Of a stretch of DNA of 64,000 nt, positions 7,776 to 64,000 are shown in pieces. The position numbers and the translations under genes are program-made. Each line of letters begins with the position of its first letter. The first letter of the stretch is position 1. Source of the stretch: Salegentibacter agarivorans (GTDB lineage: Bacteria > Bacteroidota > Bacteroidia > Flavobacteriales > Flavobacteriaceae). The DNA is taken from the NCBI RefSeq assembly GCF_900113135.1, contig NZ_FOOH01000003.1:1-64000 (forward strand), written 5' to 3'. The notes beneath the pieces were generated by a model. The model was not told the DNA's origin, searched no databases, and worked only from the letters and a program-made list of their open reading frames with translations.

Positions 7776-10229
7776 ATGATAAGAAAATTACCTATTCTGG
7801 GGTTGGCCGCAATACTTGCAACTGGCTGCGGAAGTGAGAAATCTGTTTTTAGTAGTAAAGAGAAGTCGGCTGAAAACACTTCAAAAAAATCTACAAGCAG
7901 ACTCAAATCCTACGATGAAGTCATCACTTCAGAAGCTGAATCTGATGAAGGACTTTTTACAACACATTTTGTAGATGATAAACTTTACTTTGAAATTCCT
8001 GTAGATTTACTGGAGAAAGATATGCTATTGGTAAGCCGTATCGCCGGTGTGCCCGATGGTTATGGCGGCGGTTATGTGAATGCCGGTTCTAAAGTTAACG
8101 AGCAGGTAGTGCGCTGGACGAAACGAAAAGGAAATATTGATGTAAAGGTGATTAGTTTTGAAAATATGAGCGATGAAGAATCGCCTATTTACAAATCGGT
8201 GCAGGCCAATAATTATTTCCCGATCCTCTTTAGTTCAGAAATTGAAACTTATAACGCAGATTCCACAAGTGTGGTAATTGAGGTAAGTGATTTGTTTGAA
8301 AACGAGGTGCAAGCTATTAATGGACTTTCTTCTTCTCTTCGGAAACGTTATAAAGTAAAGAAACTGGACCAGAGCAGGTCTTATATAGAGTCTGCCAGTT
8401 CTTACCCAAAAAACGTAGAGGTAAAACACGTAATGACTTACGAGGCTGAAGAGCCGCCAACACGCGACCAGGCTGGGACTATTTCTATGATGATGAATCA
8501 ATCTATGATCTTGTTGCCAGACGATAAAATGCAGCCAAGAATTGCAGATCATCGAGTGGGCTGGTTTACTATAGATAAATACGATTATAATTCAGAAGAA
8601 TTAAAAGCCGATGATTATGAACTGATTCGCCGTTGGGAATTAGTGCCTAAAGATATTGAAGCTTACAAACGTGGTGAACTGGTAGAGCCTGAAGAGCCTA
8701 TAGTTTATTATTTAGATCCTGCCACGCCTGAAAAATGGCGCCCTTATTTTAAACAGGGAATTGAAGACTGGAATGTGGCTTTTGAAGAAGCAGGATTTAA
8801 AAATGCGATTATCGCTAAAGATCCGCCAACCAAAGAAGAAGATCCCGAGTTTAGCCCTGAAGATGTGCGTTACTCGGTGGTGCGTTACGTAGCCAGTACT
8901 ACCAGGAATGCGGTGGGGCCTTCGGTAACCGATCCGCGAACCGGGGAGATTATTGAAAGTGACATTATTTGGTATCATAATCATTTGCGTTCTTACCGAA
9001 ACCGGTATATGATTGAAGCCGGAGCGCAAACCGAAGATGCCAGGACTTTAAATACCCCCGAAACTGAAATCGGAGAAATGATGCGTATGGTAATTGCTCA
9101 CGAAGTTGGCCACGCGCTTGGACTTCCGCATAATATGAAAGCGAGTTCTGCTTACCCAACAGATTCGTTAAGATCGGCTGAGTTTACCCAGAAATATGGT
9201 TTAACGCCATCTATCATGGATTATGCAAGGGTAAATTATGTTGCGCAACCGGAAGATGAAGGAGTGAGATATATTAGAATGATGGGACCTTATGATTTAT
9301 ATGCCATCAACTGGGGTTATAGATATTTGCCTGAAGCCGAGTCCGCCGAAGCGGAAAAAGAAAAATTAGATGAATGGATTTTAGAAAAAGCTGGAAATCC
9401 ATGGTATGAATTTGGAAATGGTTATGGCGGAGTAGATCCACAATCGCAGCGAGAAAGTTTGGGAGATGACCAGGTGAAAGCCAGTGAATACGGATTGGCG
9501 AATCTTAAAAGAGTAGTGCCAAACTTAATTGAGTGGACTTCTAAAGACGGTTACGGTTATGACGATCTTGAAGAAGTGTACAGAGAGTTAACTTATATGT
9601 GGAGAGGTTATGTATCTCACGTGGTCGCCAATGTTGGCGGGGTTTACGAAACTCGTAAAACCTCTAATCAGGATGGCGTGGTTTATGAAAATGTTCCGAA
9701 GGAAAAGCAGGAAGAAGCTGTGAACTTTTTAGTTAAAGAGGCTTTCACAACACCAGATTGGTTGCTTAACCAGGAAATTTTAAACCGAATTGAAGCTTCG
9801 GGAGCTATAGAACGAGTGCAGAATTTGCAGACTCGTACCTTAAGTAGTTTGCTGGATGAAGATCGTTTAAACAGAATGATCTCCAATGAAGAAGTAAATG
9901 GTGATAAAGCCTATTCCGCGGTGAATTTAATGAGCGATTTACGAAAAGGTATTTTCAGCGAACTTTATAATCGAAATAAGGTTGATGCTTACCGGAGAAA
10001 CCTTCAGCGTTCTTATGTAGATATTGCTTCAGAATATCTTAAAAAATTAAATGCTGAAGATAACGAAGCTTTATTGAAATCTGATATTTTACCTCTTATG
10101 CGCGGTGAAATGCAAACATTAAAGCGTGAGATAAATCGTAGAAAATCTGGAGTGAATCATTCATTGACTCAATATCACTGGGAAGATTTAATCGCCAGGA
10201 TAGATGCTGCCTTAGATGTAGAATCTTAA
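7776..10229 (+). CDS. Zinc-dependent metalloprotease lipoprotein (DUF5117/DUF5118 type)
   Basis: An 817-residue predicted lipoprotein: the N-terminus MIRKLPILGLAAILATGCGS carries a lipobox with Cys18. The middle region matches the large Bacteroidetes zinc-dependent metalloprotease family, with DUF5118/DUF5117 blocks before the catalytic segment. The zinc site HEVGHALGLPH (442-452) is the extended metzincin-like HExxHxxGxxH motif, and a Met-turn-like SIMDYARVNY follows. It should act in the periplasm or at the outer membrane. The substrate is unknown. A strong terminator follows at 10252-10290. Confidence 0.9.
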   Translation: MIRKLPILGLAAILATGCGSEKSVFSSKEKSAENTSKKSTSRLKSYDEVITSEAESDEGLFTTHFVDDKLYFEIPVDLLEKDMLLVSRIAGVPDGYGGGYVNAGSKVNEQVVRWTKRKGNIDVKVISFENMSDEESPIYKSVQANNYFPILFSSEIETYNADSTSVVIEVSDLFENEVQAINGLSSSLRKRYKVKKLDQSRSYIESASSYPKNVEVKHVMTYEAEEPPTRDQAGTISMMMNQSMILLPDDKMQPRIADHRVGWFTIDKYDYNSEELKADDYELIRRWELVPKDIEAYKRGELVEPEEPIVYYLDPATPEKWRPYFKQGIEDWNVAFEEAGFKNAIIAKDPPTKEEDPEFSPEDVRYSVVRYVASTTRNAVGPSVTDPRTGEIIESDIIWYHNHLRSYRNRYMIEAGAQTEDARTLNTPETEIGEMMRMVIAHEVGHALGLPHNMKASSAYPTDSLRSAEFTQKYGLTPSIMDYARVNYVAQPEDEGVRYIRMMGPYDLYAINWGYRYLPEAESAEAEKEKLDEWILEKAGNPWYEFGNGYGGVDPQSQRESLGDDQVKASEYGLANLKRVVPNLIEWTSKDGYGYDDLEEVYRELTYMWRGYVSHVVANVGGVYETRKTSNQDGVVYENVPKEKQEEAVNFLVKEAFTTPDWLLNQEILNRIEASGAIERVQNLQTRTLSSLLDEDRLNRMISNEEVNGDKAYSAVNLMSDLRKGIFSELYNRNKVDAYRRNLQRSYVDIASEYLKKLNAEDNEALLKSDILPLMRGEMQTLKREINRRKSGVNHSLTQYHWEDLIARIDAALDVES

Positions 10230-63402: not shown

Positions 63403-63463
63403 ATTTTTAATTTATTTTAAAAAATACGGGTTGAATTTGACGAAAAGCTAAGGGAGTAGTGAT

Positions 63464-63532
63464 ACTGCTTTAGCATTTTTCTTATACTTTAAAAAGCATA
63501 AAAGGGTTGCAATCAGTCAAATCCTTCCCTTT
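63464..63532 (-). ncRNA. SAM-II-like riboswitch in the metK leader
   Basis: Reading the minus strand, the RNA has P1 AAAGGG (63527-63532) pairing with CCCTTT (63501-63506). The 20-nt loop contains GATTTG, ACTG and ATTGC. After an A-rich joining stretch comes GCTAAA (63469-63474) and CAGT (63464-63467). ACTG (63514-63517) pairs with CAGT, and TTGC pairs with GC(T)AA, forming an H-type pseudoknot. The GATTT, ATTGC and GCTAAA elements and their order match the SAM-II consensus. The aptamer starts within 10 nt of the predicted transcription start. Confidence 0.72.
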
Positions 63533-63545
63533 AATAATTCGGTTA

Positions 63546-63788: not shown

Positions 63789-63821
63789 TTTGGTTATTAA
63801 AAATTTCTGCCCTTATCTTTG
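63789..63821 (+). promoter_or_regulatory. Promoter of the methionine leader transcript
   Basis: A -33 tttg (63789-63792), a 21-bp spacer and an exact -7 box tatctttg (63814-63821) give a full Bacteroidetes promoter. Transcription would begin near 63828, about 13 nt before the leader ATG. Confidence 0.65.
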
Positions 63822-63840
63822 TAACCAACAAAACAACGAA

Positions 63841-63912
63841 ATGTACCAGATAATTTGCAATATGATGCGTATGATGATGTGGAAAACTTCCGCAGCGCGC
63901 TCAATTGCTTAA
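63841..63912 (+). CDS. Met-rich leader peptide (23 residues)
   Basis: This short ORF encodes 23 residues, MYQIICNMMRMMMWKTSAAR followed by SIA. Six are Met, with tandem MM (codons 8-9) and MMM (codons 11-13). It has its own promoter and is followed 23 nt later by an intrinsic terminator, the layout of ribosome-mediated attenuation leaders. It precedes an unseen rightward gene beyond the window, likely for methionine biosynthesis or uptake (inference), and is divergent from metK. Confidence 0.75.
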   Translation: MYQIICNMMRMMMWKTSAARSIA

Positions 63913-63935
63913 TTCTGAAAAGAGATAAATTGCAA

Positions 63936-63968
63936 AAAGCCGCTGCCAATCGCAGCGGCTTTTTTTTT
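63936..63968 (+). terminator. Attenuator terminator after the Met-rich leader
   Basis: aaagccgctgc (63936-63946) and gcagcggcttt (63952-63962) are perfect inverses with a 5-nt loop, followed by a T run to 63968. The left arm segment cgctgc (63941-63946) can instead pair with gcagcg (63892-63897) inside the leader ORF, giving an antiterminator. Confidence 0.85.
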
Positions 63969-63980
63969 ATTTAAAACTTA

Positions 63981-64000
63981 GTCATTTCCGCGGAGGCGGA
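63981..64000. repeat. Start of a dispersed repeat, cut by window end
   Basis: gtcatttccgcggaggcgga resembles gtcattcccacgcaggcgga at 34091. Only the beginning of the unit is visible. Confidence 0.4.

Follow-up and report, generated by a model that had tools for sequence, protein, structure and literature searches.

The right end of the stretch of DNA analysed here raises the question whether a methionine operon can be controlled by a leader peptide which is itself rich in methionine. Methionine is a hard case for attenuation since every protein begins with it, and to our knowledge no leader-peptide attenuator has been described for it. The classical amino-acid attenuators of Proteobacteria are those of trp, his and leu, and the trp plan consists of the pairings 1:2, 2:3 and 3:4. 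We are confident that two ribosome-dependent transcription attenuators stand in series before the metY operon of Salegentibacter agarivorans and that the one found in the window is the first of them. The open reading frames, the terminators, the alternative pairings with their covariation, the gene context and the conservation were computed in this analysis; ribosome stalling, the sensing of uncharged tRNA, read-through and the logic of the series are what we infer.

Gene context

The window, that is, the whole analysed stretch of 64,000 nucleotides, comprises bases 1–64000 of contig G000:C22. It was extended past its right end as locus L006, where the contig position equals the L006 position plus 62,999. 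Unit 1, reckoned from promoter to terminator T1, occupies 63789–63968 on the plus strand between metK and unit 2. To its left metK is encoded divergently, on the minus strand, and is preceded by a SAM-II riboswitch (RF01726, 60.4 bits, window 63460–63536, minus strand) which is back to back with the methionine attenuators. Unit 2 (contig 64069–64227, with the leader at 64069–64164 and the terminator at 64188–64227) is situated between unit 1 and metY, already beyond the window. The gene right of position 64000 is a methionine gene, as the original prediction would have it: metY, coding for O-acetylhomoserine sulfhydrylase (contig 64325–65617), is the first large gene beyond the right border of the window and is followed by metX-like, homoserine dehydrogenase-like, metB-like, Rrf2, cysH-like and sulfite-reductase-like genes. 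Among the seven proteins scanned only those of metY and metK exceed the NCBIfam cut-offs, and the other gene names in the cluster are best matches below the cut-off or Pfam domains. The closest named relatives of metY are from Salegentibacter, with S. salinarum at 99%.

Anatomy of the first unit

The predicted promoter (63789–63821, plus strand) has TTTG at 63789–63792 and TATCTTTG at 63814–63821 with 21 nt in between, and we take it to be of the Bacteroidota type. The sigma-A box of Flavobacterium psychrophilum is given as TAnnTTTG in the accessible text of PMC9723704. Of the 54 unit-1 leaders, 39 have such a box in the 60 nt before them, mostly 26–30 nt from the ATG, as compared to 33 of 648 control windows, which lie further upstream and are partly coding. 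The promoter that had been proposed is predicted here as well, and its box recurs in the relatives.

The 23-codon reading frame, MYQIICNMMRMMMWKTSAARSIA, was found as originally described. It runs on the plus strand from 63841 to 63912 including the stop, and its control codons M8 M9 R10 M11 M12 M13 (63862–63879, the last Met codon being 63877–63879) comprise MM at codons 8–9 and MMM at codons 11–13. The segments 1:2, TGTGGAA AAC TTCCGCA at 63878–63894, are predicted to fold into a protector hairpin. Segment 2 of the antiterminator, GCAGCG at 63892–63897, can pair with segment 3, CGCTGC at 63941–63946, and this is the alternative pairing suggested at the outset. The intrinsic terminator T1 (segments 3:4 and the T run, 63934–63968) has its arms at 63934–63946 and 63952–63964. 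It had been described as a perfect 11-bp stem with a T run; the terminator and the T run are there, but the stem has 13 pairs, eight pairs GCCGCTGC/GCAGCGGC and five A-U pairs, and nine T follow the eight-pair core. The RNA from 63819 to 63970 folds with −44.5 kcal/mol compared to a shuffled mean of −29.2 (z −4.12), and none of 200 shuffles was as good.

Taken by itself the Met run of leader 1 is possibly due to chance, since two of the 329 ATG reading frames of 15–45 codons in the window, leader 1 included, have at least five internal Met. It is conservation which, on the evidence of the aligned sequences, raises unit 1 above chance, with 53 aligned units and the enrichment of the promoter box.

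Conservation and covariation of the first unit

The relatives retain both units, with covarying terminators and antiterminators. We found 54 copies of unit 1; the doubtful L157 was excluded and the other 53 form the alignment A1. The leader search asked for at least two internal Met, and two leaders were added by eye; the conservation of the Met codons and the Met percentages are therefore partly selected. Within this Met-filtered and hence partly chosen set the Met codons are conserved as had been expected: none of the 53 A1 rows departs from TGATG in the control codons, and MM is found in 52 of 54 unit-1 and 54 of 55 unit-2 leaders. Likewise for these filtered leaders, Met accounts in frame for 20% of the residues in unit 1 and for 25% in unit 2, and for less than 1% in the other two frames. 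The distance from the last Met codon to the antiterminator core is 12 nt in 43 of 53 unit-1 rows.

Compensatory changes, which the original prediction regarded as telling, were found in both stems. Terminator 1 is paired in 99.6% of the cells and has changes on both sides at five of nine pairs. Antiterminator 1 (segments 2:3) is paired in 96.5% of the cells, whereas slid controls are paired in 27–75%. Its covariation is 0.238 versus 0.083 for shuffled alignments, a value which none of 500 shuffles attained. The fifth pair is CG in 27 rows, AU in 22, GC in two and GU in two, and in none of the 53 rows is it unpaired. A natural variant of the two segments, GCAGAG with CTCTGC, occurs in Flavobacterium. 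The protector is paired in 86.5% of the cells, with a modest excess of covariation (0.226 versus 0.179; three of 500 shuffles as high). A hairpin at this site, in varying register, belongs to the predicted fold of all 53 rows and reaches p ≤ 0.05 against shuffles in 26 of them.

We also compared the best duplex of leader tail and left terminator arm with 200 mononucleotide shuffles of the leader tail. The natural tail is better at p ≤ 0.05 in 44 of 54 unit-1 and 37 of 55 unit-2 cases; in the other 10 and 18, respectively, which are mostly from Flavobacterium, the duplex is no better than with shuffled tails. Of the 53 unit-1 rows, 45 share the frame of the antiterminator core and eight have the core in a different one; in unit 2 the 55 rows are split 52, 2 and 1. 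As the frame of the core shifts while the preceding Met codons stay in frame, it is the RNA pairing that is kept and not the end of the peptide.

Unit 1 appears to have the anatomy of a classical attenuator at every point at which sequence allows a test, the protector being modestly supported. The plan of amino-acid attenuation originally put forward would fit as 1:2, 2:3 and 3:4. Two elements go beyond it, namely the protector hairpin, which would complete the plan of unit 1, and a second unit with Met and Cys codons before metY.

The second unit

Leader 2 (contig 64069–64164), MMIKAINKMMMRTMMMCMCMQHMNCYCQNRM, has Met as well as Cys codons, and an in-frame upstream ATG would add seven codons. 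Near its end is GCTATTGCCAA, whose pairing partner is TTGGTAATAGC in terminator 2. In the alignment A2 (55 unit-2 rows, 54 of them distinct) terminator 2 is paired in 99.7% of the cells and has many two-sided changes. Antiterminator 2 is paired in 82.4% of the cells, and its covariation is moderate, 0.084 versus 0.043 shuffled with none of 500 shuffles as high; its 11 two-sided cells are only a little more than the nine and seven of two slid controls. On these alignments antiterminator 2 is weaker than antiterminator 1 and partly lineage-specific. In L074, L076 and L094 the duplex test for unit 2 gives p of about 0.97, though a TCCAAAAG pairing is visible at the stop. We searched unit 2 for a protector hairpin as well, and with p ≤ 0.05 in only two of 55 rows it is unsupported. 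Cys makes up 15% of the unit-2 and 8% of the unit-1 residues, and part of the Cys in unit 2 stems from the pairing segment itself. At most of the points open to such a test unit 2 appears to share the classical anatomy. Of the 42 inter-unit stretches only one has a TAnnTTTG box. This near-absence favours, but does not prove, a single promoter with two gates in series.

Exchange with SAM riboswitches

The SAM-I riboswitch senses S-adenosylmethionine by an aptamer. It serves the same pathway as the units and is found at metY in unit-free regions; no match is present at the units here. We collected 156 regions upstream of metY (155 distinct in the last 400 nt) from 110 loci and 46 further regions; two G037 rows and 43 of 120 genomes, those with no match at the cut-off, were left out of this set. 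A first regular expression for SAM-I recovered only 19 of 30 Rfam positives and was replaced by a wider one, which recovers 27 of 30 and none of 16 negatives; the remaining loci were settled with Rfam.

Units are present in 67 of the 156 regions, and none of the 67 has the SAM-I pattern. Fourteen of them were scanned with Rfam, and no SAM riboswitch was found upstream of metY on its strand. The 89 unit-free regions have SAM-I in 77 cases, SAM-II in nine and neither in three. SAM-I lies at most 800 nt upstream of metY (70 by pattern and seven more by Rfam). SAM-II is on the same strand in all nine, near metY in two and about 1.3 kb upstream in seven, counted regardless of what lies in between. 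The three regions with neither a SAM riboswitch nor units are L027, L149, for which a further scan likewise gave no match, and L010. The contig of L010 starts 383 nt before metY, and in the genome concerned, G007, a different contig has both units at its end. Counted the other way, in a manner independent of the Met filter, 70 of the 156 regions have no SAM riboswitch that we found, and 67 of these 70 have units.

On a FastTree tree of 110 metY rows the distribution of the attenuator and of SAM-I requires a minimum of four changes of state, a rough count as 26 of 105 inner branches are starred. An exception to the mutual exclusion is seen at metX of G143 (L173), whose leader has a unit 1 and, behind it, a SAM-I riboswitch (73.4 bits), two different methionine sensors in tandem.

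Spread of the units

Covariance models of unit 1 (R1) and unit 2 (R2) were run on 249 genomes of the family and 395 of the class. In its own genome the top R1 match has 128.7 bits and the next 37.8. Among the matches listed for the 249 family genomes, 20 R1 matches have at least 52 bits, of which 17 are before metY, two before metX and one at a contig end. Of R2, 14 of the matches listed exceed 50 bits: ten before metY, one before metX, one before a gene without an assigned name, one at a contig end and one, L213, which is false as it falls inside a sir coding region. The scans of family and class also gave many weak matches. Among those inspected, L190, L191, L192, L236, L237 and L248 turned out to be ordinary terminators or repeats in coding sequence, located within unrelated genes or behind them. 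We therefore relied on strong matches and admitted weak ones where a Met/Cys leader could be seen.

In 80 named loci R1 reaches at least 79 bits in 53 and R2 at least 72 bits in 53, but 42 and 51 of these matches, respectively, served as training rows of the models. The remaining eleven R1 matches belong to loci of the Flavobacterium type, where unit 2 follows only some 3.2 kb downstream, and each precedes a reading frame of 948 aa, which comes to lie between unit 1 and the unit 2-metY part (L075, L080, L083, L087, L090, L092, L097, L098, L099, L100 and L115). One of these reading frames was checked and codes for a TonB-dependent receptor (PF00593 and PF07715), which may import a sulfur source.

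In the scan of 395 class genomes (E up to 1e-5) units that look real were found outside the family before metY in G436 (tandem) and G297 and before sir in G559 (two), G465, G579 and G257. A further such unit, in G507, stands before an OsmC-like gene (named by eye) with metB behind. The matches in G330, G402 and G445 are false.

In Flavobacterium a second, diverged pair of units is located before metX (L085 at 7896–8214, L095, L098, L099, L088, L071 and L086). These units hold few Met codons, and several of the second leaders end in Cys, for example with CVCVC. Similarly, an R1 match in G466 (L234) has kept the plan of the attenuator and has few Met codons. In three Flavobacterium loci (L097, L098 and L112) unit 2 is separated from metY by a small unassigned reading frame, which lies about 250 nt ahead of that gene and starts with MKTLNSIAVEYLLRND in L097. 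In L238 a leader resembling unit 1, MMLFVCNMCCMMWKNPQSISIA, precedes an unknown gene and a gene resembling cysteine synthase (by eye), and a SAM-II riboswitch is on the same contig. L078, on a contig titled Bifidobacterium breve MAG, has a Flavobacterium-type metY with both units and is probably misbinned.

Proposed mechanism

We suggest that control proceeds in the following steps. RNA polymerase would start behind the promoter at 63789–63821, with a ribosome following on leader 1. When elongator Met-tRNA is scarce, the ribosome would wait at MM(M) and cover segment 1, TGTGGAA. Segment 2, GCAGCG, would then be free to pair with segment 3, CGCTGC, and since this pairing prevents the terminator 3:4 from forming, transcription could continue. 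With plentiful methionine the ribosome would run to the stop and cover segment 2, and T1 could form. Past T1 the polymerase would meet unit 2, where Met and Cys codons may have a like role and GCTATTGCCAA would pair with TTGGTAATAGC. Transcription of metY and the genes co-transcribed with it would need both gates to be open. As a shortage of methionine also hampers initiation, and an untranslated unit 1 would fold 1:2 and terminate, the working range of the device is perhaps narrow.

A wider reading, towards which we lean with some reserve, joins a dual-input gate for sulfur amino acids with the riboswitch exchange and a regulon of Bacteroidota. Unit 1 would report the charging of Met-tRNA and unit 2 that of both Met-tRNA and Cys-tRNA on one transcript. 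In the course of evolution this gate and SAM riboswitches would have taken each other's place several times, with the result that one and the same operon responds in some genomes to SAM, the end product, and in others to the demand of translation for Met and Cys. The related Met/Cys leaders, single or paired, which precede metX and sir, and in one genome the tandem of unit and SAM-I before metX, would make the gate a regulon, which must function although methionine starvation also slows initiation.

Alternative explanations

The leaders could code for small functional peptides rich in Met and Cys, for instance metal binders, the terminators being ordinary. Some copper-binding peptides are indeed rich in both residues, and the unit-2 leaders consist of Met to 25% and of Cys to 15%. 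However, the end of the peptide is read in a different frame in 8 of 53 unit-1 and 3 of 55 unit-2 rows, and yet the RNA segment complementary to the terminator is preserved. With the left terminator arms covarying with the leader and the strong matches located before metY, metX and sir, we consider such peptides highly improbable. Scarcely any more weight than a few chances in a hundred should be given to a metabolite riboswitch of unknown class within which the reading frame is incidental. Relatives do have SAM-I or SAM-II at the same operon, but no Rfam family reaches the gathering score at the units of the window, of L006 and of the 14 attenuator loci scanned, and in the same set an aptamer of RF00162 or RF01726 upstream of metY is absent. 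A T-box is absent as well from an all-family Rfam 15 scan of the window (at gathering score) and of L006 (E up to 1). Outside the terminator, conservation concerns the Met codons read in frame and the segment complementary to the terminator, and unit 2 has no significant upstream fold.

Translation of the leader might also act by the general position of the ribosome, by Rho or by initiation, that is, by the supply of fMet-tRNA, and not by stalling at internal Met. Methionine starvation lowers initiation too, a unit 2 which has no protector could be open by default if untranslated, and diverged units with few Met codons do exist before metX. On the other hand internal Met codons are retained, with a spacing of 12 nt to the antiterminator core in 43 of 53 rows, and the intrinsic terminators are conserved, for which reasons we regard this explanation as unlikely. 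Stalling at the internal Met codons of two attenuators in series is the reading we prefer.

Relation to known systems

With trp, his and leu the units share a leader with cognate codons, an intrinsic terminator, an antiterminator and, in unit 1, a predicted protector, all before a cognate operon. They differ in the use of Met and Cys codons, the two units in series, the host from Bacteroidota and a unit 2 with no clear protector. What is surprising is the choice of amino acid, the tandem of a Met and a Met plus Cys unit, the phylum in which it occurs and the fact that SAM riboswitches have repeatedly been exchanged with it. A conserved Met (and Met plus Cys) system would make the paradox of initiation testable and would add a sensing logic beside the SAM riboswitches to methionine control; it would also supply well-defined natural cases in which one operon has exchanged one type of RNA sensor for another.

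According to the accessible text of PMC1262725, cys operons of Mycobacterium and Propionibacterium are preceded by leader peptides with cysteine runs. These resemble the units as short reading frames which precede sulfur genes and in which codons for sulfur amino acids form runs, but a conserved terminator hairpin was not found there and Rho was proposed; for the methionine operons of Actinobacteria the same portion of text reports no conserved RNA structure upstream. The tandem attenuators of Salmonella mgtCBR, in the section available of PMC3641672, likewise have two short reading frames with stem–loops in a single leader, but differ in gene set and signal. The hisS switches (PMC2965389, partial text) are comparable in that the sensor is exchanged and attenuation is kept, but here the exchange is between a SAM riboswitch and Met/Cys leaders and takes place in Bacteroidota. 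Their authors stated in 2010 that before their own finding in Firmicutes no leader-peptide system was known outside Proteobacteria and Actinobacteria (same partial text).

For F. psychrophilum, of the same family as our host, strong indications are reported of attenuation by leader peptides ahead of operons for the biosynthesis of amino acids. The amino acids are unnamed and the word methionine does not occur in the main text as available (PMC9723704), and these attenuators may overlap with the finding here. A methionine mechanism of Xanthomonas was considered as a precedent and set aside, since its 5′ UTR, in the available text of PMC6230763, is partly like a SAM-I riboswitch and not a leader peptide. 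The available portions of PMC2864571, PMC9373788 and PMC7366714 contain nothing on a Met leader. More generally, no methionine leader-peptide attenuator was found in the open-access literature as far as its texts were available, and novelty is claimed within that scope.

Further elements of the region

Between the cysH-like and sir-like genes a weaker Met/Cys leader, MKKEQSYTEMYRSKMCIRCT, is seen by eye at contig 70536–70598, and a terminator, also recognised by eye, follows at about 70626–70663. Directly behind both terminators of the two units there are repeats of the form GTCATTTCCGCG..GCGGAAATCC (window 63981–64000 onward and contig 64223–64260), and copies resembling them are present on contigs C30 and C19. 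The window further contains a match to the group II intron D1D4-2 (RF01999, 95.1 bits, 247–367). A SAM-I riboswitch of 85 bits is located at contig 78188–78298 (L006 15189–15299), before a homocysteine methyltransferase/metH-like pair of genes named by eye; with the other elements beside it, three kinds of methionine-related RNA are assembled in one cluster.
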